From Cladocopium goreaui (lineage: Eukaryota > Sar > Dinophyceae > Suessiales > Symbiodiniaceae), in contig CAMXCT020000253.1 in assembly GCA_947184155.2 (NCBI GenBank), positions 62,001 to 126,000 of the forward strand: 64,000 nt of DNA, read 5' to 3'. Below are positions 1 to 49,780 of the stretch, one piece after another (the stretch's first letter is position 1; the number at the start of each line of letters is the position of its first letter). The translations under genes and the position numbers were made by a program. The notes beneath the pieces are model-generated. The model did not search any database. It worked only from the letters and a program-made list of their open reading frames with translations, and was not told the origin of the DNA.

Positions 1-1155
1 GCCAAACAATCAAAAGCACGCTTGTTTTTGCTCTGAAGATCTGGTGCTTCTGAAGCATGAGCGCGGACACTGCCAAAAATCTCTTGGGATCGTTCAATAA
101 GCAGCTTGTCTCTGTTCAAAGGTTGCGCGATATCTATGCCACATGCGTGATATGCTTGACGAGCTTTCTCGTCAGTCAGAGCCATTTCACTGATCTTTGA
201 GCAGCACAAAAGAGCTTGCTGAATGTTCATGCTGCCATGCCTGGTATTCCATTGTGACTTGGTTCGGGACCACTCTCTGGCCCACAGCTGGTGTGGAGCC
301 TGGTCAAGACTGCACAAGGCCTTGGTTGAATAGGCCGGGAGCAGGAATATACGGCATCGGTGCCGCTCAGCAACTATGCAGAGCTCAGGGCTTACATGAA
401 GCCAGCATCCTCCTCCGCTATCGCAAATCAACACTAGCTCTTGAGCCAGCGGAACATGCCTCCGCATTGGCAGCAACCAGCACTGCTCCACAAATTCGGC
501 AAAAATGGCTGCTGAGATTGACCCGGATTGATTTGCACGAATGCACGCGGTGGGCCACGCTTTTTGCATATCGGGCGTGGTGCCGGCAAAAGGAACCACA
601 ACTCCCACCGGCAAATGAGAAGACATCTGCTGGTGTCTCTTGATGGGTAGAAAGGAGCAAATCGTGAGGTGGCTGAAGCCCAATTTGACACCAGTAGCTG
701 CTGCTTTGTGACGCATGTCTCGTGGTACTACTCCCTTGCTCACTTCATCCTGCCGTTGGCTCAAGCCTTTCTCATCTGTGGTGCAAACTCTGTGCGCTTG
801 CTCCTCAAGAAGCACAGCCTTTCCTGCCTGATTCTTTTCCATGATGCCAACGCTCAGGAGCATGTCCTCCAGCTCTTGGAGGCAGCCTACAATGACATCT
901 GGTGTGACTGTCACAACTTCTGCCAAAGACTTCTGCCTTAGGTTTTTCACTTGGATCCAATCCTCTTGGGGCTGGCAGCTCTTCACCCACTGACGAAAGC
1001 TTTGCCACAAAGTATCTTTGTAATAGTGGTCGAAATTCTCAGTGATGCGGGCCTGCATGTCCGCGATGCTTGGGTGATCTCCGAACAAGCCAGCTTTGGC
1101 CATGCGCAGGCTCACCTCAAAAACAAGTGGTGAAAAAGCATTGGCACAAACAAAC
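1..1155 (-). CDS. DDE_1/pogo-like transposase catalytic exon (runs off left edge)
   Basis: Reading the minus strand from about 1155 to base 1 gives one uninterrupted frame of roughly 380 codons that leaves the window. Motifs appear in the order expected for DDE_1 (pogo/Tigger, Tc1-mariner superfamily) endonucleases: VCTTDEKGLSQR matches the first-Asp DETGF box; HLTICSFLP with LPVGVVVPFAG matches the strand and 'price-of-goods' segment; LVLICDSGGGCWLHVSPEL matches the second-Asp DGHxSH box; IFLLPAYSTKALCSLDQ matches the LPPHTTHLLQPLD third-Asp box. A likely acceptor is the TGCCAG near 1155, because the frame is closed by TAA just upstream. The second-Asp box has Gly-Gly where His is usual. The role is inferred as cut-and-paste transposition or a domesticated derivative. 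Zinc/SAP-like exons lie upstream on the same strand. Confidence 0.62.
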
Positions 1156-1332
1156 TGGCAGAAACCAAAATGCCCAAAAGTTTAGCAGCCTATCCAATAC
1201 CATATTTCGAAACAAGGGGTGCAACGTCATGACGCAATTTCTAAATTGAGGCGCTATGGTTTTCGTGACATCCTGGCAAGAGAGCGGGATGCTGCAGCGG
1301 CAGTGAAAACGAATGACGGCCAAAAGGTCCAA

Positions 1333-20232: not shown

Positions 20233-20251
20233 AGGTAACCATCGGTGTAAA

Positions 20252-40193: not shown

Positions 40194-40340
40194 ACCCATA
40201 GGATCCCATAGGATCCATGTATGGTATATATTGGTATATATGGTAACATTTACCAATATACCCCCTTTATGTTAGCATATATACCAGCACCATGGATCCT
40301 ATGGGATAGCAACAAAAATAGAGAGTCGTCTTTCAACCAA
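40194..40340 (+). mobile_element. Dispersed repeat, family M7
   Basis: Bounded by CCCATAGGATCCATG and CCATGGATCCTATGGG, followed by AGCAACAAAAATAGAGAGTC GTC. An inverted second copy lies at 49639-49780. Confidence 0.7.
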
Positions 40341-40912: not shown

Positions 40913-41212
40913 AAAGACTCACAAGTTTGTCTGCCCCTTTTTTGCACAGCAAGACCTATTTGGTCATAAATTGAAAAGGAAAATAGGTTATAAAATTCCA
41001 AAAATACTGCACCGTCCAATTTGGACTGTTAACCATCATCCTCCCTGAAAATTATTTTCAGTCACTCCCCCCATACCCCCTCGCCAAGCCGAGGTGGGCA
41101 TGAGCCACAGAGTGAAGGTAGTACTGGGCCCCGCCAAGCCGGGGAACGACCAGTCCGCCTACCTGTTTTCTCTCTTCTTAACCAACGATTTCTTCTTGGA
41201 AGTTTTACTCCC
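40913..41212 (-). repeat. Split repeat B2
   Basis: 300 bp, matching 41305-41604 base for base at a constant offset of 392 as far as I can compare. Contains the coding sequence for the recombinase C-terminus (KKKSLVKKRENR) and the element's 3' end. Confidence 0.85.
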
Positions 41213-41233
41213 CATGTGGAGGGTGGTTGTGGG

Positions 41234-41305
41234 AGCTGAGCCGAAACTCGGCGAAAAAAGCCGTCATTAAACATGTTCGTCTTTACATTCGAGGGCGTTC
41301 ATTCA
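41234..41305 (-). repeat. Split repeat A2
   Basis: 72 bp identical to 48683-48754. It again encodes MFNDGFFRRVSAQL, the start of the gag-like frame, so a short chimeric frame of 71 codons runs from A2 into B2. Confidence 0.85.
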
Positions 41306-41604
41306 AAGACTCACAAGTTTGTCTGCCCCTTTTTTGCACAGCAAGACCTATTTGGTCATAAATTGAAAAGGAAAATAGGTTATAAAATTCCAAAAATACT
41401 GCACCGTCCAATTTGGACTGTTAACCATCATCCTCCCTGAAAATTATTTTCAGTCACTCCCCCCATACCCCCTCGCCAAGCCGAGGTGGGCATGAGCCAC
41501 AGAGTGAAGGTAGTACTGGGCCCCGCCAAGCCGGGGAACGACCAGTCCGCCTACCTGTTTTCTCTCTTCTTAACCAACGATTTCTTCTTGGAAGTTTTAC
41601 TCCC
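41305..41604 (-). repeat. Split repeat B1
   Basis: Starts inside the recombinase coding region (last ~18 codons and stop) and continues to the junction with A2. Identical to B2. Confidence 0.85.
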
Positions 41605-42606
41605 ACTTCCCCCTGCCCTGCCACGAGTGGCATGCTCAAGTTTTGGCAAGGGAGAAGTTTTGGCTCTAAGGAATTGCTGGTGAAACACTCGTGCATGAGG
41701 GGTCAATTTCAGATTTGTTTCAGCGAGAGTGGCGATGCCACTGTCAATATACATCCTTGCGGTTCTAGCTGATTGCCACCTCCCCTGAATCAGGAGGCGG
41801 TCTAGTTGACCATGGCGTTGAAAGTAGAAAGTTGCGCCACCCCGGCGCAGACTATAGGGTCTATACTGGTATGCAGTAAGCCCTAAGGATTCAATTGAAT
41901 CATTAAATTGTTTTCTCCACTTGTGGGGGGCACTACAGAGCGAAGTTCCTGGGGAGCAAGACTGTTTCCACTGCCACAACCTACGAAGGGTATCCGCCTC
42001 TGTGATGGTGACGCTCTCTGCTGCGCCTGCTCGTTTCCCTCCCTTTGTAAGCCCCAACGAAACAACTGCCACGGACTCTGCTGAGGCTTGTGAGATATCT
42101 TTATTGTGGAGACTCAAAAGCTCCCCTGTACGCAGGAGCCCAAAGAATCCCACTAGGAGGGAGAGCGCAAAGGTATAGTTGGAATTAAACAGTGCATGAC
42201 CTACCAGCGTTTGCAACGCTTGTTCGCTGAGAGGGGGTGCCCGAGCCGGAATTTCATTGGCTGACCACGTTCGCAGCAGGCGCCAGCTACAGACCAATTG
42301 CCCCTTGAGGCGAGGATCACGGTCTTGCAGGCCCGCCAAGGTATCCGATGCCAGGCTGCGTCCCTCCCCTTCGCTCCAGATATGCTCCAAAAAGTCTGAA
42401 ACCAAGGGATCTAAGTTTGCTCTTTGGCGTGGGAGCTCAATTTGGCGCTCATTCAAGAACCTATAGAAGTGGTTAACTGCTTTGGTGTATCTTTCACGAG
42501 TTTTGGGTTGTACTGTAAGCTGACGCAAGCTGCCTAGGCGGGCCCTGACGGCCTTTCTCTCTGTCTTACTCCTCCCTTCTAGATGAAGGGCTACTTTCTT
42601 CCCCAT
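41551..42606 (-). CDS. Tyrosine recombinase of the DIRS-like element
   Basis: About 350 residues. N-terminal SAM-like DNA-binding part (TKAVNHFYRFLNERQIELPR). Catalytic region: GLLRTGELLSL holds the first Arg; YSLRRGGATFYF holds the second Arg, with Tyr where HxxR recombinases have His; QGRWQS holds the Trp/His position; ARMYIDSG holds the nucleophilic Tyr. It integrates the circular DNA copy by site-specific recombination, as known for DIRS elements. The first ATG is at 42606; a frame-compatible GTG lies at 42615. The start overlaps the end of the RNase H frame. The C-terminal codons lie in repeat B1. Confidence 0.85.
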   Translation of the reverse strand: MGKKVALHLEGRSKTERKAVRARLGSLRQLTVQPKTRERYTKAVNHFYRFLNERQIELPRQRANLDPLVSDFLEHIWSEGEGRSLASDTLAGLQDRDPRLKGQLVCSWRLLRTWSANEIPARAPPLSEQALQTLVGHALFNSNYTFALSLLVGFFGLLRTGELLSLHNKDISQASAESVAVVSLGLTKGGKRAGAAESVTITEADTLRRLWQWKQSCSPGTSLCSAPHKWRKQFNDSIESLGLTAYQYRPYSLRRGGATFYFQRHGQLDRLLIQGRWQSARTARMYIDSGIATLAETNLKLTPHARVFHQQFLRAKTSPLPKLEHATRGRAGGSGSKTSKKKSLVKKRENR

Positions 42607-42851
42607 TTTCTGCACAGTCGCCCCCTTGAAGGGGCATCAGCGGGGTTCAAAGCAGTATGGATGTACGTCCACACTGCTACGTTTTGTGACAGGAGGAGCA
42701 GAGAGTTAATCCTGGCCAAAGTACGTCTTAGCTTACGGCTACTGGTTCGCCCTCGTGTGAGGGTGTGTAGACACACCAGCGAGTCGGTCAAATGAACCAA
42801 CCGTTGCTTCTTGGTCCTTTGCTTTAAAACACACGCCATCTGAGTGCACAC
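42591..42851 (-). CDS. RNase H C-terminal part in a shifted frame
   Basis: VLKQRTKKQRLVHLTDSLVC carries the third acidic residue (TDS), and LNPADAPSRGRL carries the fourth (the NPADxxSR box typical of DIRS and gypsy RNase H). The upstream half with the catalytic Glu ends in the pol frame at 42824, 28 bases into this frame. The change falls at GGCGTGTGTTTTAAAG; removing a GT would fuse the two. Either this copy has a GT-repeat mutation or the element uses recoding. Confidence 0.7.
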   Translation of the reverse strand: MCTQMACVLKQRTKKQRLVHLTDSLVCLHTLTRGRTSSRKLRRTLARINSLLLLSQNVAVWTYIHTALNPADAPSRGRLCRKWGRK

Positions 42852-45800
42852 AAAACTGCCCTGAGCTCAAGACAATTGATGTGCTCTTTACTCCCTTTCC
42901 ACTGCCACCCACAAATGGTTCGCCATACCCACAGATTTGATGGTATGCTCGCTCTGAGACGATGGTAGCGGAGTGTTTCTTCGCTAGAAGATGATAGGAG
43001 AATGTCCTCTCCCTTGATACTGACCATGTTGAGTAGTTTCTTGACAAGGGCCAATTCATTACCAGGCCTTAAAGGCTTCCTGGGTCCCCCCATAGGTGGC
43101 CGTGACAGAAAGCTAGCGAGGTCGTGGTTGGCCCGTGGGGCAGTACGTTCAATGCACTGTTGAACACTCAACGGTGGAATGATACCAAGCGGATGACATA
43201 ATTGTCCCAACAGCCATGTGACCACCGTCACATTCCATGAGTTACCCAGTAAGGTAAGCCGCAAGTCTTGATGTTCCGACGTGTTGTGCTTGCTCTTTGG
43301 TAAACACTGGACCGTGTAGTGACGAGGGAACCCCATTATTACCTCACGTTCTTCCACATTGAGTAGTCTGTGCTCGCTACCACGGACCACCTGGTAGCAC
43401 AACCGGTACTGATACGGGGGGAACCTGAACTGGTCCGCCTTCCATTGAGCCAGCTCAGTTTCATTGAGCTTGTCAATTCCTGCAGGTTTTCGGCCCGGGA
43501 AACTGCGGGGCCTGGATGTGGTGAAGGTCGGGAATGGCTCATCAGAGGCCCGTCGCCACCCAGGAGCTAAATAGGAGTCCGCTGGCACGTCCCCTGACAA
43601 AGTAACGGTGCCATATGACAACGCCTCCCCTGTGCTTGGAGGACTCAGCTCAACACCCAAGGAGTCTCTCAACTCCCATGTAATCCAATAGTACCTGGGC
43701 CGGCGTGCCAAACTGACTCCCTTTGCATCAATGCCCCAGGGTTGACTGCCAAAGGATTCACTCATAATTTCCCGATCAGCCTCATCCATGGACTGGACTG
43801 ACTCCATGAGTGTGTGAACTTGAGCCCACGGGAAAGCTTTTTTCACCAGTTCTCTAATACGCGTAACATGCACGTACAGTTTACTACGGTGATCACGAAG
43901 GGCTCCGCGCCTGTCGACGTTTAACCCACTGACGCCTTGGCATGGGGGTCCCCCCCCCAGAATTATCAAACCGACCTGAGTGAACTTCCCAGCCCACTCC
44001 TTCACCATAGTGAGGTCAACGGCTTCAACATCCGACACCAATATACTGCTTGGAAATCGGGACTCCAAGACTCGTGATGCGGCCGCATTAACCTCAACAC
44101 TCACATGACCTGCTACTGGCAAACCTGCGGCATCAGCTGCCACCCGCAGAGCGCCCACTCCATCGAACAAACCAATGGTCAGGATTTGAGTCATGTCGTC
44201 TACCGAGGCTACGTCTCCCCGCACACTACAGGAGGCTGCCATTTGCCCGACGTTGGTTAATCCGCGGCTAACTGTAACCCCCCCACCAGTGGTGGAAGCG
44301 TCACTTGCAGTGACCTGGTCATGCGGTTCCAACCTGAAATCCAGTTGCGCCAGAGGCATCATCGCCAAAAGCCTAACTATCTCCAGTTTCACCACCCGTG
44401 GGATTTCCAACCGGACAACTGGTGGGTACTTGTTGAACTCTTCAATGAACTGCCAAATGGCGTTCAAACTTCCCATCAGGGCCCTCTTGAAAGTGGCCAG
44501 GTAGACGAGTCCACCGGCGATCACTTGCATTTCTTTTTGCGAGCACCTCCCCGTACGTACGGTTAGGAGTGCCAACTGCGAATACTTAAGAATTTTCTCT
44601 GGCTTTGGGTAAGCACAGCCTCGCTCGCCGTCCACAATGGCCCCCTGGACTTCGGCTAGTGTGGCCCGTTGGACCGCCTTTTTTGGGTGGCGCGGAACTC
44701 CCCAATGCTCATATTCGCTTCTTAGGGCCAGAATGGATGGACTAGGAGTTCCAACAATGACCTCGGCCATGCGTTTGTCAACTTTCTCAAGCTCATCGAA
44801 GTTGTCAAGGTAGACCCTGTGCATGACCTCTGTGTTGGGGAAAGCCCGATCCTTTCTGAGCTCTTGATGACCTCCGAGCCTGCCTTCAACCTTTGCCCTT
44901 GCCCCTTTGACGATATTTCGGTGCACATTTTGGGCCAGACTCACGCTGTTCTTAAACCCCATGGGTAATACTTTAGCCACCAGGTAGTGCCGCCCTGGCT
45001 TGCCAACGTGAAACCTTCCCGAAACGGGTTTGTTGAAACCCAAAAACCGTTGCCAACAATGCGGCACACTGAAGATGTAGAAAAAACACCTAACATCTTC
45101 TGAGGATATTAGCAACTGGTCTGTAGGCATCAGATACAGCGGGCTGGCCGAAGACCATGCGGGCAGAGTAGCTACATCTCCTTGGATGGGACGGCATATT
45201 TGGTTGAGTGGAACCAAATTCATGATTAATCTATGAATTTCATGGCCTTCAACCGACTCCCCTTTTGAGACCCCGAAGAGTCCGTTTAGGAGTGGCTTTC
45301 CTTCCACCTGGAATAGCTCGTGTTCTGGCATGACGCCACAGATTCCGGTAGATATGAGCCCATCACATAGCTCATCCCAGTCCTGATCGCTGACCATTAC
45401 CCTTGGAGGGCGAGTGTAAACCCTACTGTCCTGGCTCACCAGGTAGTCTTCGAAATTGAGCACATAATGTCTACACCCCTCACTGACCACATCAGCGAGC
45501 TCCACGCCTCCCACTTCGGTGGGAATGGCCGACCTAAGGTTTGACCAGGAGGTAATACGAGCCGTGGCTACTTCATCTCCCACATAGTCTAAGCTGCGCC
45601 ATTTGAAAAACTCCTGCCACGAAATTTCTCCAAAACACTCACTCCAACCGCAAACTGAATTGACAATTGACCTAAGTTCCCGTAAGAGGTCCTTTTGTAC
45701 AGGAGAAACCTTCTTCTCCCCTTCTACCGACACCCCAGCATAGCTGTTTAGACCGAGGCAAATATTTACCAACAAGTCTAGTGCCTCATTTTGAAGTCCA

Positions 45801-46249
45801 ACCACACCTGCCAAAAATTCCGAGCTGGTGGGTAACGGAAAAATGTCACCCTTGGGCTGGGTCTTGCCGTGCAGACCATGGTTAATTACCTTTGAGTTTT
45901 CGATCAGCAGGGAACGAATAACAGGTGCGGCGGAAGAAAAAGGTTTCCCAGAAAGGTTTGGTTCACTCAACCCAAACCCTGACATCCCCTCAGCCGGATC
46001 TCTCTTTTTTCGACCACTCTCACGCAGAGGTCCACTGGCGCCTACCGGGTGACTAGTCCTAATGTCACCTCTGCAACGGCCGGAAAGCGCCCTTTCCCTC
46101 TCAGTGGCAGTCCCGTTGGTTGAAGAATTGTCGCTGCCAGCTAACCCCCAACTGGGCAACGCTGCTGTGCAAGTCTCAGCTACAGCCAAGACTTCTTCCC
46201 ATGGGCCGTTCTCCTGCTCTTCGGCAGGATGTCCGGTCCCTGGGGACAT
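42824..46249 (-). CDS. Pol: reverse transcriptase, RNase H and embedded DNMT3-like cytosine methyltransferase
   Basis: The frame stays open back to 47458, but the part before 46363 is the shadow of the gag-like frame; the first later ATG is at 46249. By genomic position: RT motif A SSEDVRCFFYIF (near 45098), motif B LPMGFKNSVSLAQ (near 44960), motif C VYLDNFDE (near 44806), where the usual YxDD is YLDN. RNase H first Asp TASDASTTGGG (near 44300). Then a complete C5 methyltransferase: GLFDGVGALR (motif I, 44170), GGGPPCQGVSG (motif IV with catalytic Cys, 43943), MESVQSMD (motif VI, ENV changed to ESV, 43806), ARRPRYYW (VIII, 43700), GFPRHYT (IX) and LLGNSWNV (X, 43245). RNase H Glu CLELRA follows at 42868. 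IX and X resemble DNMT3. Confidence 0.85.
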   Translation of the reverse strand: MSPGTGHPAEEQENGPWEEVLAVAETCTAALPSWGLAGSDNSSTNGTATERERALSGRCRGDIRTSHPVGASGPLRESGRKKRDPAEGMSGFGLSEPNLSGKPFSSAAPVIRSLLIENSKVINHGLHGKTQPKGDIFPLPTSSEFLAGVVGLQNEALDLLVNICLGLNSYAGVSVEGEKKVSPVQKDLLRELRSIVNSVCGWSECFGEISWQEFFKWRSLDYVGDEVATARITSWSNLRSAIPTEVGGVELADVVSEGCRHYVLNFEDYLVSQDSRVYTRPPRVMVSDQDWDELCDGLISTGICGVMPEHELFQVEGKPLLNGLFGVSKGESVEGHEIHRLIMNLVPLNQICRPIQGDVATLPAWSSASPLYLMPTDQLLISSEDVRCFFYIFSVPHCWQRFLGFNKPVSGRFHVGKPGRHYLVAKVLPMGFKNSVSLAQNVHRNIVKGARAKVEGRLGGHQELRKDRAFPNTEVMHRVYLDNFDELEKVDKRMAEVIVGTPSPSILALRSEYEHWGVPRHPKKAVQRATLAEVQGAIVDGERGCAYPKPEKILKYSQLALLTVRTGRCSQKEMQVIAGGLVYLATFKRALMGSLNAIWQFIEEFNKYPPVVRLEIPRVVKLEIVRLLAMMPLAQLDFRLEPHDQVTASDASTTGGGVTVSRGLTNVGQMAASCSVRGDVASVDDMTQILTIGLFDGVGALRVAADAAGLPVAGHVSVEVNAAASRVLESRFPSSILVSDVEAVDLTMVKEWAGKFTQVGLIILGGGPPCQGVSGLNVDRRGALRDHRSKLYVHVTRIRELVKKAFPWAQVHTLMESVQSMDEADREIMSESFGSQPWGIDAKGVSLARRPRYYWITWELRDSLGVELSPPSTGEALSYGTVTLSGDVPADSYLAPGWRRASDEPFPTFTTSRPRSFPGRKPAGIDKLNETELAQWKADQFRFPPYQYRLCYQVVRGSEHRLLNVEEREVIMGFPRHYTVQCLPKSKHNTSEHQDLRLTLLGNSWNVTVVTWLLGQLCHPLGIIPPLSVQQCIERTAPRANHDLASFLSRPPMGGPRKPLRPGNELALVKKLLNMVSIKGEDILLSSSSEETLRYHRLRASIPSNLWVWRTICGWQWKGSKEHINCLELRAVLCALRWRVF
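43230..44195 (-). other. DNMT3-like methyltransferase domain
   Basis: About 320 residues from motif I to motif X within pol. Cys of PPCQ, Glu of MES, the Arg pair in RRPRYYW and the Asn-Ser of GNSW are present, so the fold looks complete. The target-recognition region between VIII and IX is about 120 residues and includes FPTFTTSRPRSFPGRK. Expected reaction: transfer of methyl from SAM to C5 of cytosine. Family resemblance to DNMT3 rests on FDGVG, REVIMGFPRHYT and LLGNSWNV. Confidence 0.85.
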
Positions 46250-46362
46250 CCCCTGGAAATTGTTAGGGTCACAGGGGGGACATGCATCAGCTCCCTTATA
46301 TGGTGCCAGGAGCTGTTCGCCAACGCGCCTCTTTTTGCCTTCTACCACCTCGACTCCCTGAC

Positions 46363-47787
46363 CTAGGAGCCCTTCTTGCCATCCTCTCGATCTCCTTTCT
46401 TTCCTTTCGCCTTGTCTTTGCCTTTTTGTTCGCCTTTTCCCATCGGTCTCCATCCTCCTGGGTTCTCTCCTTTTCCTTTTTCTTTGCCCTTGGTCAGAGC
46501 CCTGACCTTCATTTCTTCTTTGTTTTCTTTTGCAGCGGCCTGCGCCTCGGCGCGGCTGGCCAACAGGGGCTTGTCGGGTGGTACCACCTCCACACGTTGG
46601 GATACCATCCAGCTCCCTCCATTGGCAGTCATCTCCACGCTCTTCAGTCGCTGGGACAGACAGTCCATCATGTCTGCCAGTTTGCCTTGGAGGCCCAAGT
46701 CCAAGGCCCAACACAAGGTGAGCGCTTCCCTGCTTGCTCCTCCTGAGAGCTTGCCTTGCAGCTGGTTCCGGAAGAACTGCAAAGCCACTGGGGGCACAGC
46801 CCCCGTATCCTGATCCCACACACTGCCCGAGGCGGTCAGGAGTTGCCGTTGCATTCCTCTCACCATGCTGCACGTCAACGCTCCCGGGGCCCGCTTTGCA
46901 ATTGTCCTTACTTTGTGTGCTTCTTCGAAGATATCCCCCGAGTCCCCGCTTCCTAAGGAGTCCACGCCAGAACTCCCCTCTGATGTGCCGTTGCTGCTTG
47001 TACTTTCCTCCTCTCTCCTCTTCTTGGATCTTAGTCGTTTCTTTACTCTTCTTCGCACTTGTTTCCTTACCCTGACGTCTGGATCCAGCCCCGTAGTGCC
47101 AAAGACAACTTTCAAGTCCTTCTGAGACTTTAGCTTCCTGTTCTCCTCCTTTGCTGCCTTCTTCTTGTCCTTCGAGGTTGAACTCTCTGACTCCTTGACC
47201 TTCTTCTTTTTCTGCTTCTTCTCCTCTCGCCTCTCTGGCGCTTCGGGCTCTCTCTCTCCTGCTTGGCGAGCGTCTTTCCTCATTTGCGCCAGCTCGTCTA
47301 GGCTCCCTTTGAGGTTCTCGGCCCAACCTCCTTCGTCCTCTCTGGACTTCAGCCTCACTTGCTGGCCGTGAACCAGTCCATTCGAATCCACCTTGTTGAG
47401 ACATGCCTTCCCACACAGATGGACACGAACTAAGGTGCCAGGGTTTCCCGAAATCCACTTCAGGAGCTCTTCGTGATCGGTTCCCTCTGCTGTGAGGGTG
47501 ATTTCAGAATCACCAGCTCCCTTCACCTGTAGTCCTTGTATCAGACCACACAGCTTGCACTTTCCTCCACAATACTCCCCTTCTACAACAATAGGAGTAC
47601 CTTGAATCAGGAGATCAGGAGGGGTTTTGTCTGCCTCAACGAAACCTCCTCCCTTGAATCTATCCTTTATCGCCAAGTCTTCTTCTCCCGCAACAGCCGC
47701 GGGGCGACGGAGCACTGCACGTGCTCTGACTTTCGCCTTGGGAGCAGCTTTCACAGCTGCTGCAGGCCTTCTGGCCCTCACTGACAT
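46363..47787 (-). CDS. Gag-like ORF 2
   Basis: About 474 residues from an ATG at 47787 whose A overlaps the previous stop (TGATG). N-terminus is Ala/Arg/Lys-rich. A CGGKCKLCG cluster and HLCGKACLN may bind zinc. Then a Lys/Glu coiled-coil region (EEKKQKKKKVKESES), a folded helical part (ALQFFRNQLQGKLSGGASRE, LGLQGKLADMMDCLSQRLKS) and a Lys/Gly tail (KGEQKGKDKAKGKKGD). Pol lies in the -1 frame relative to this ORF. No canonical slippery heptamer was seen near its end. Probably a nucleic-acid-binding structural protein. Confidence 0.6.
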   Translation of the reverse strand: MSVRARRPAAAVKAAPKAKVRARAVLRRPAAVAGEEDLAIKDRFKGGGFVEADKTPPDLLIQGTPIVVEGEYCGGKCKLCGLIQGLQVKGAGDSEITLTAEGTDHEELLKWISGNPGTLVRVHLCGKACLNKVDSNGLVHGQQVRLKSREDEGGWAENLKGSLDELAQMRKDARQAGEREPEAPERREEKKQKKKKVKESESSTSKDKKKAAKEENRKLKSQKDLKVVFGTTGLDPDVRVRKQVRRRVKKRLRSKKRREEESTSSNGTSEGSSGVDSLGSGDSGDIFEEAHKVRTIAKRAPGALTCSMVRGMQRQLLTASGSVWDQDTGAVPPVALQFFRNQLQGKLSGGASREALTLCWALDLGLQGKLADMMDCLSQRLKSVEMTANGGSWMVSQRVEVVPPDKPLLASRAEAQAAAKENKEEMKVRALTKGKEKGKGENPGGWRPMGKGEQKGKDKAKGKKGDREDGKKGS

Positions 47788-48723
47788 CAACGATAGTAGC
47801 GGCCTCTCCTCCAGGCCTTCTGCTTCTCTCGCTTCTTCACTCCTTTGTTCTCACCCCAGGCGTCCTCTCCTTCTCTCCGGGGTTGCTGACCCCTATAGCC
47901 ACCGTAGTAGTGCCACCCACGTTGGGCGTAACCACGATCGCTCCACCCCGACGGCGGATGTTCAGGTTCAGGAGGGCGAGCTGTCCTGTCCCGATGTCCT
48001 CGGGCGGCAGAGCTCCTCACAATGGGACTCCGACTGGACCTCGAGCGCTCCTCCCTTTTCTCTTGTGATGGACCGTGATGGACTAGCTTTCCTCTTCCTT
48101 GACCGACTTTTCTTGTTTTTCTTCTTGGCTTTCTCTTTTTTGGTGACCTCTCGTTTCCTGCTAAACGACTCCTCTGAAGGTTTCCTTTTCGTGGATCTCT
48201 CCTTGTGTTTCTTGCTATCTTTATGCTTCTTCTCGGTTTTCTCCTCGGCTTTTTCTTCTGGGACGGCAACTTCTATTGGACTGCTTGGCGCTTGACTTTC
48301 TTGGCTTTCCTTTGTCTCTTCTGGCTCCTCAGGAGACGCAAGTCTCCCTTCGCCCTCAGCTGCGGGCTCTTCTTTTGTCGCGGCCGGCAGCGTCTCCTGA
48401 GTGGTAGTTGGAGTGGGCTCCCCAAAAACCACGGGAGAGCTGGCCTTGGGAGTGGATGCAGCAACTGCCTGCCGTTCAGCGGCTCGCTGGCTGCAGATCA
48501 GAAATTTGAGCCTCTCCTCCTGCAAGAGGGATACCCACACCCTGGCCTGGTCGGTGGCCCAAGTCCGAAGGGCCACGGGCAAGCTCCTAGCCTCGAGGCT
48601 AAGGCGCCGCAGAGCCCGGCACAGAGGGCAAGTCCCGTCGATGTCTGCCAAATATTGTTGGCAGTCAGCGCAGGCTACCATTAGCTGAGCCGAAACTCGG
48701 CGAAAAAAGCCGTCATTAAACAT
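47787..48723 (-). CDS. Gag-like ORF 1, split over two frames
   Basis: Starts at ATG 48721-48723 inside repeat A1 (MFNDGFFRRVSAQL). CADCQQYLADIDGTCPLC is a CxxC-x11-CxxC zinc motif. Then WATDQARVWVSLLQEERLKF (helical), a Pro/Thr/Glu linker and a Lys/Arg/Ser region. This frame stops at 47968, but the adjacent frame (open from 48269 to 47787) continues with natural-looking sequence (GYAQRGWHYYGGYRGQQPRR) and ends TGATG at the next ORF. A frameshift near 48030-48060 would join them; mutation of this copy or an unrecognised intron are alternatives. Confidence 0.55.
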
Positions 48724-48754
48724 GTTCGTCTTTACATTCGAGGGCGTTCATTCA
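48683..48754 (-). repeat. Split repeat A1 (5' end of element)
   Basis: 72 bp identical to A2 at 41234-41305. Contains the gag-like start codon about 31 bases inside the element. Confidence 0.85.
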
Positions 48755-49637: not shown

Positions 49638-49638
49638 T

Positions 49639-49780
49639 TGGTTGGAAGACGACTCTCTATTTTTGTTGCTATCCCATAGGATCCATGGTGCTGGTATATA
49701 TGCCAACATAAAGGGGGTATATTGATGGGATCCATGTTACCATATATATCCATATATAGCATACATGGATCCTATGGGTA
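49639..49780 (-). mobile_element. Dispersed repeat, family M7 (inverted copy)
   Basis: GGTTGGAAGACGACTCTCTA then the CCCATAGGATCCATG...CATGGATCCTATGGG body, the inverse of 40194-40340. Confidence 0.7.

Follow-up and report, generated by a model that had tools for sequence, protein, structure and literature searches.

The window analysed here is a 64,000-nucleotide (nt) stretch of contig CAMXCT020000253.1 of Cladocopium goreaui, and all coordinates below are window positions. It holds, at 40913-48754 on the minus strand, a DIRS-like retrotransposon of the SymbioDIRS-Dnmt3 kind described in the main text of PMC5890265. We consider it likely that the Pol protein of this element carries a Dnmt3-type C5 cytosine DNA methyltransferase (DNMT), together with a tail of about 80 residues, as an insert in its RNase H domain, placed after strand 2 and before strand 3, that the RNase H folds from two halves, and that the DNA of the element is CG-methylated before integration. 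At the level of sequence, the architecture is established by collinearity with a contiguous RNase H from the same genome, by open frames in which the catalytic residues of reverse transcriptase (RT), RNase H and DNMT are conserved, and by its occurrence in two deep clades. A sequence-only reading of 42590..44320 had proposed a cytosine methyltransferase nested within a retrotransposon RNase H, leaving the element class (established here as DIRS) unnamed, and all of the motifs that it listed were located where it had placed them, on the minus strand. Features of the Pol region are given below, with lengths in amino acids (aa) or residues.

42824..47503, minus: pol frame, open over 1559 aa between stops (from the list of open reading frames, ORFs)
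44795..45106, minus: RT core motifs, from motif reading and a match to the DIRS relative L057 (SSEDVRCFF, 45106-45080; LPMGFKN, 44968-44948; YLDNFD, 44812-44795)
44258..44329, minus: N-terminal part of RNase H, strands beta-1 and beta-2 (SDAS motif, 44305-44294; catalytic Asp, 44302-44300)
43175..44191, minus: Dnmt3-type C5 cytosine methyltransferase domain, boundaries from the model of homolog P0018 (FDGVG, 44167-44153; PPCQG, 43948-43934; MESV, 43807-43796; RRPRYYW, 43705-43685; GFPRHYT, 43333-43313; LLGNSW, 43252-43235)
42932..43174, minus: post-DNMT tail, about 80 residues, belonging to the insert
42827..42931, minus: C-terminal part of RNase H within the pol frame, beta-3 and the start of helix A (LELRA motif, 42871-42857; catalytic Glu, 42868-42866)
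42591..42866, minus: remaining C-terminal part of RNase H, in another frame (HLTDSL, 42794-42777, with Asp 42785-42783; NPADAPSR, 42647-42624, with Asp 42638-42636)

Position of the methyltransferase within RNase H

The DNMT and the RT share one ORF, and the methyltransferase was identified as PF00145 (E 4e-9), located within the RNase H. The nearest Protein Data Bank (PDB) chain to the window DNMT was DNMT3A (E 1.4e-11), and DNMT3A and DNMT3B chains were closest both by sequence and by fold searches using the P0018 model. The first RNase H Asp and the catalytic Glu, judged about 475 codons apart from sequence alone, were measured at 478. Profile searches had been suggested for the methylase, RT and RNase H families; the first was confirmed, while neither RT nor RNase H was reported by Pfam at E ≤ 1 in the main pol frame, and the other frame (C-terminal part) matched PF00336 alone, at E 4e-4 and under the cut-off.

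The DIRS relative L057, the sole non-nested one found in the same genome, served as a comparator. The nested-family profile matched L057 in two collinear blocks (residues 168-389 on 1-216, E 5.6e-14; residues 839-939 on 270-368, E 4.7e-14), and both blocks were also recovered by BLASTP (at E 1.3e-12 and 1.4e-11, respectively). Between these blocks lie 449 residues in the nested family and 53 in L057, and the insert follows strand 2 of the RNase H and precedes strand 3. When compared with fish DIRS-like RNase H, one half aligned to columns 56-74 and the other to columns 80-140, in adjoining register, with the score of either half reached by 0 of 60 column shuffles; in the same comparison none of the DNMT thirds, the tail or an RT piece stood out. 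Profile alignment places the TASDAS and CLELRA segments in one RNase H domain, where unrelated domains would have spoken against nesting.

A structure model had also been proposed as a check. The AlphaFold model of homolog P0018 (mean predicted local distance difference test score, pLDDT, 85.6) has the strand and helix order of an RNase H with the DNMT between predicted beta-2 and beta-3, judged by secondary-structure order. In a fold search with the entire P0018 model, the best 50 rows were all methyltransferases. With the isolated C-terminal part, all 50 VIA rows were RNase H folds, and the best six began at the third strand. In sequence searches for RNase H, Pfam on 14 rows of set A2 returned one weak RVT_3 match (E 0.11) and three unrelated names, the PDB sequence search using the C-part profile gave 0 matches, and the C-part found no relative in viral-contig and genome-contig collections.

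The modelled C-terminal part bears on a different arrangement, in which a whole RNase H follows the DNMT, its first strands replaced by the tail (LRASIPANLWKW), with SDAS a relic and the DNMT lying between RT and RNase H. Most HIV RT rows do start at model residue 13-14 on HIV 424-425, which places some of the tail on the strand 1 region. However, the first strands of L057 and of fish RNase H align to SDAS, the P0018 model has beta-1 and beta-2 at 371-394 with low confidence at 804-830, and the SDAS Asp is kept in all but one of 78 complete homologs (below). We regard a complete downstream RNase H as highly improbable.

In L057 itself (L057:3083-5113, minus strand), a domain of about 250 residues follows the RNase H (FAGKGELT, FGMPCGSFS, ENPKSS). 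It resembles a methyltransferase by eye, but a reading as C5-methyltransferase was not supported: in profile comparison, shuffles reached the score 17 and 7 times out of 40, and Pfam returned nothing.

Conservation in homologs, genome copies and a second clade

A protein search returned 958 homologs, of which the best 120 were listed; counts of homologs refer to those 120. Strict SDAS, LE[LM]RA and NPADxPSR patterns were all present in 79. The distance from SDAS to LE[LM]RA was 474-483 residues in 75 of these (466, 488, 503 and 1085 in the rest), and that from LE[LM]RA to NPAD was 74 residues in all 79. Together with the 1559-aa open frame and the PF00145 match, this speaks against a chance pattern. 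With looser patterns, the RT, beta-1, DNMT motif IV, helix A, beta-4 and last-helix motifs occurred in order in 89 of the 120, and 25 of the remaining 31 were without the 3' motifs alone. Set A1 comprises the 78 listed homologs chosen as complete. Across its rows the four RNase H acids (D-E-D-D, in one chain) are kept in 77, 78, 78 and 78, the D, D and N of the RT in every row, and the DNMT residues checked in all 78 except at three sites (68, 77 and 71). When 105 homologs were scanned from the DNMT to helix A for another beta-1-like motif, 5 matches resulted, three being VDAT in the tail and two arising where the scan had begun too early.

RT motif C usually has two Asp. It reads YLDN in the window (44812-44801) and in the second nested element L058, and YIDD in the non-nested L057; the Asn is present in 78/78 clade A homologs (set A1).

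The genome of the window (1.17 Gb, 6202 contigs) gave at least 39 matches to the element; 30 of 9597 candidates were scored, so copy counts are lower bounds, and 28 of the 30 main places were read. Both RNase H halves lie in one frame around the DNMT in 26 of the 28 copies (534-552 codons apart), with no stop between the halves in 19 of the 26. A separate complete RNase H, which would have undermined the nesting, was found by motif in none of the 28. Two copies are frame-broken, the window copy (L001) and L002. The window copy is so classed because its later RNase H acids sit in another frame (42866-42591): the main pol frame ends just past the Glu helix, with the frame change between helix A and beta-4, and this copy is probably dead. 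Most of the relatives read do not share this frame break. L002 (G000:C557) is the closest copy found, at 98% identity over pol residues 1-1191, and its lesions differ from those of the window copy.

One homolog raises the question of whether the DNMT is removed before the RNase H forms, by RNA splicing or protein cutting, leaving RT-RNase H and DNMT as separate molecules. In P0268 (240 aa; 3 sequences, 2 contigs) beta-2 is followed directly by the tail that elsewhere comes after the DNMT, and then by the C-terminal part of the RNase H, with SDAA replacing SDAS; it was the one DNMT-less relative among 35 rows read of the 120. It could reflect loss of the DNMT by deletion or a gene model, and several of the predicted proteins come from spliced gene models whose quality is uncertain. 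Against removal, P0268 retains the tail, frames are open across all boundaries in the 19 genome copies counted above, and the genes are called intronless in the main text of PMC5890265. Removal is considered very unlikely.

L058 has the same nested arrangement as the window element, with Dnmt3-like motifs (PF00145, E 7e-7; best PDB chain DNMT3B, E 6e-8). Clades A (window) and B (L058) share 29.7% identity over 715 residues (E 3e-76), and by sequence the DNMT occupies one and the same position within the RNase H in both of these deep clades. All 64 candidates scored out of 1646 in the L058 genome search matched (L058 included); 60 of them span the unit (from residue 21 or earlier to 689-690), and a stop occurs in 1 of the 64. 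The four RNase H acids were aligned and kept in all five clade B copies read (L058 and four more).

Acquisition of the DNMT by the two clades independently, at the same RNase H site, draws on the difference in DNMT motif IV (PPCQG in A, PC[VT]DLS in the five copies of clade B that were read) and on the report, in the main text of PMC5890265, that Symbiodinium DIRS acquired a Dnmt3 twice independently, in events that may or may not be those of A and B. On the other side, D to E spacing is 478 in A and 477 in B, motif X to HIN is 121 in both, L058 likewise has YLDN, and the tails, which are not part of the DNMT, align over 80 of 81 residues (21%, with 11 of 19 conserved columns common). A single insertion before the A/B split is favoured because the motif X to HIN spacing is equal and the tail recognisably common; independent gain appears unlikely.

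Element layout and neighbouring features

The split repeats run A1-coding-B1-A2-B2 along the element. Its features outside the RT, RNase H and DNMT are as follows.

48683..48754, minus: repeat A1, element 5' end, direct repeat with 41234-41305
46363..47850, minus: gag-like ORF, 495 aa, labelled from position and composition
41551..42636, minus: tyrosine recombinase ORF, 361 aa, separate from pol, by homology to the L058 recombinase
41305..41604, minus: repeat B1, 300 nt, 100% identity to 40913-41212
41234..41305, minus: repeat A2, direct repeat with A1
40913..41212, minus: repeat B2, element 3' end, copy of B1

Pfam gave no convincing match for the gag-like ORF. The window recombinase matched that of L058 at 34% (E 7e-55), which itself matched PF00589 at E 0.0026, under the family cut-off; LRTGELL, SLRRGGA and GRWQS..Y in the window ORF are what we take to be tyrosine recombinase motifs. 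At the 5' end of the element, a 259-aa lysine-rich frame (47968-48747, minus strand) has a possible short zinc-finger-like start (CADCQQYL..CPLC), and its Pfam matches were weak. The entire element is flanked by inverted repeats (40205-40340 and 49638-49778; 87 nt at 98% and 45 nt at 93% complementary), as if the DIRS had inserted within another, terminal-inverted-repeat element. Further long open frames at 20234-22168 (plus strand, 644 aa) and 3-1181 (minus strand, 393 aa, open at the window end) may encode transposon proteins.

Proposed working and comparison with known systems

Retrotransposons carrying DNMTs are already known. In the arrangement described here, the two halves of the RNase H would fold together, and the DNMT would be an insertion domain pointing outward. 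From the sequence we infer that one chain may copy and methylate DNA: with RT, RNase H and DNMT together, it would reverse-transcribe, remove RNA and CG-methylate the new DNA. Both enzymes, held together, would stay on the new element DNA, and CG methylation would occur during or just after synthesis, before the recombinase integrates the copy. Methylation of the complementary DNA was already proposed in the main text of PMC5890265, which also reports that isolated SymbioDIRS DNMT domains carry out CG de novo methylation in yeast. The CpG observed/expected ratio, 0.64 in the element and 0.58 elsewhere in the window, tells against a strong trace of such methylation.

The absence of CpG depletion would suit a DNMT that is carried neutrally in a permissive loop, with no role in transposition, as would the multiplication of DIRS without a DNMT (PMC5890265, main text). 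Neutrality fits poorly with DNMT motif residues that are invariant or nearly so in the 78 A1 rows, with Ka/Ks <0.2 reported for SymbioDIRS DNMT domains in the main text of PMC5890265, and with the ratio of nonsynonymous to synonymous rates (dN/dS, omega) of 0.11 for L004-L006, a single clean pair; a passenger is therefore distinctly unlikely. In segment dN/dS, dS was usable in 9 of 325 pairs, 8 of which include L015 or L016 (RT frame broken). A stronger form of the proposed working, to which we give slightly less than even weight, is that the RNase H fold cannot do without the DNMT as insertion domain, and that the two are thereby physically coupled, RNA removal going together with methylation of new DNA. 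On this view the arrangement had a single origin that predates the divergence of the two deep DIRS clades, and each clade has retained it, with selection acting on RNase H, DNMT and RT alike.

SymbioDIRS-Dnmt3 (de Mendoza et al. 2018) is the closest known system. According to the main text of PMC5890265 it likewise has a Dnmt3-type DNMT placed in the DIRS Pol ORF, a separate tyrosine recombinase ORF, A-coding-B-A-B repeats and no introns; nesting in RNase H is not mentioned in the text examined, figures and supplements aside, and Fig. 1e may draw it. KnitGypsy-Dnmt3 shares a Dnmt3 within a retrotransposon Pol ORF but is a Gypsy element and a separate acquisition, for which the same text gives no position relative to RNase H. 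Full-text literature searches, with subscription papers and preprints outside their scope, returned no other description of a DNMT nested in RNase H in the accessible text, including that of PMC3783388, PMC3266345, PMC6338049, PMC3985635, PMC1950709 and PMC7776569. DIRS1 with a Dam-like methyltransferase resembles the window element in its DIRS order and in having a methyltransferase in Pol; as described in text of PMC3266345 and PMC3783388, however, an adenine methyltransferase follows an uninterrupted RNase H (RT-RH-MT series), whereas in the window element PF00145 lies inside the RNase H.

Nesting gives the question of what the DNMT does for such elements a structural form: it ties the DNMT to the domain that handles new DNA, which makes methylation of the element's own copy directly testable. 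One genome supplies both L057, for comparison with the non-nested state, and a further nested clade, that of L058. At the beta-2/beta-3 site, RNases H2 and H3 have helices (PMC3985635). In the P element, Hermes, Tn5 and RAG1 transposases and in PARN, an RNase H-like fold is likewise interrupted by a further domain, at another position or with another insert; in the transposases the insert comes after beta-5, ahead of the next helix, and is no methyltransferase, as far as the text of PMC7776569 and PMC3985635 describes them. To these split RNase H folds of DNA transposases, the window family contributes a retroelement case, with an enzyme inserted between beta-2 and beta-3.
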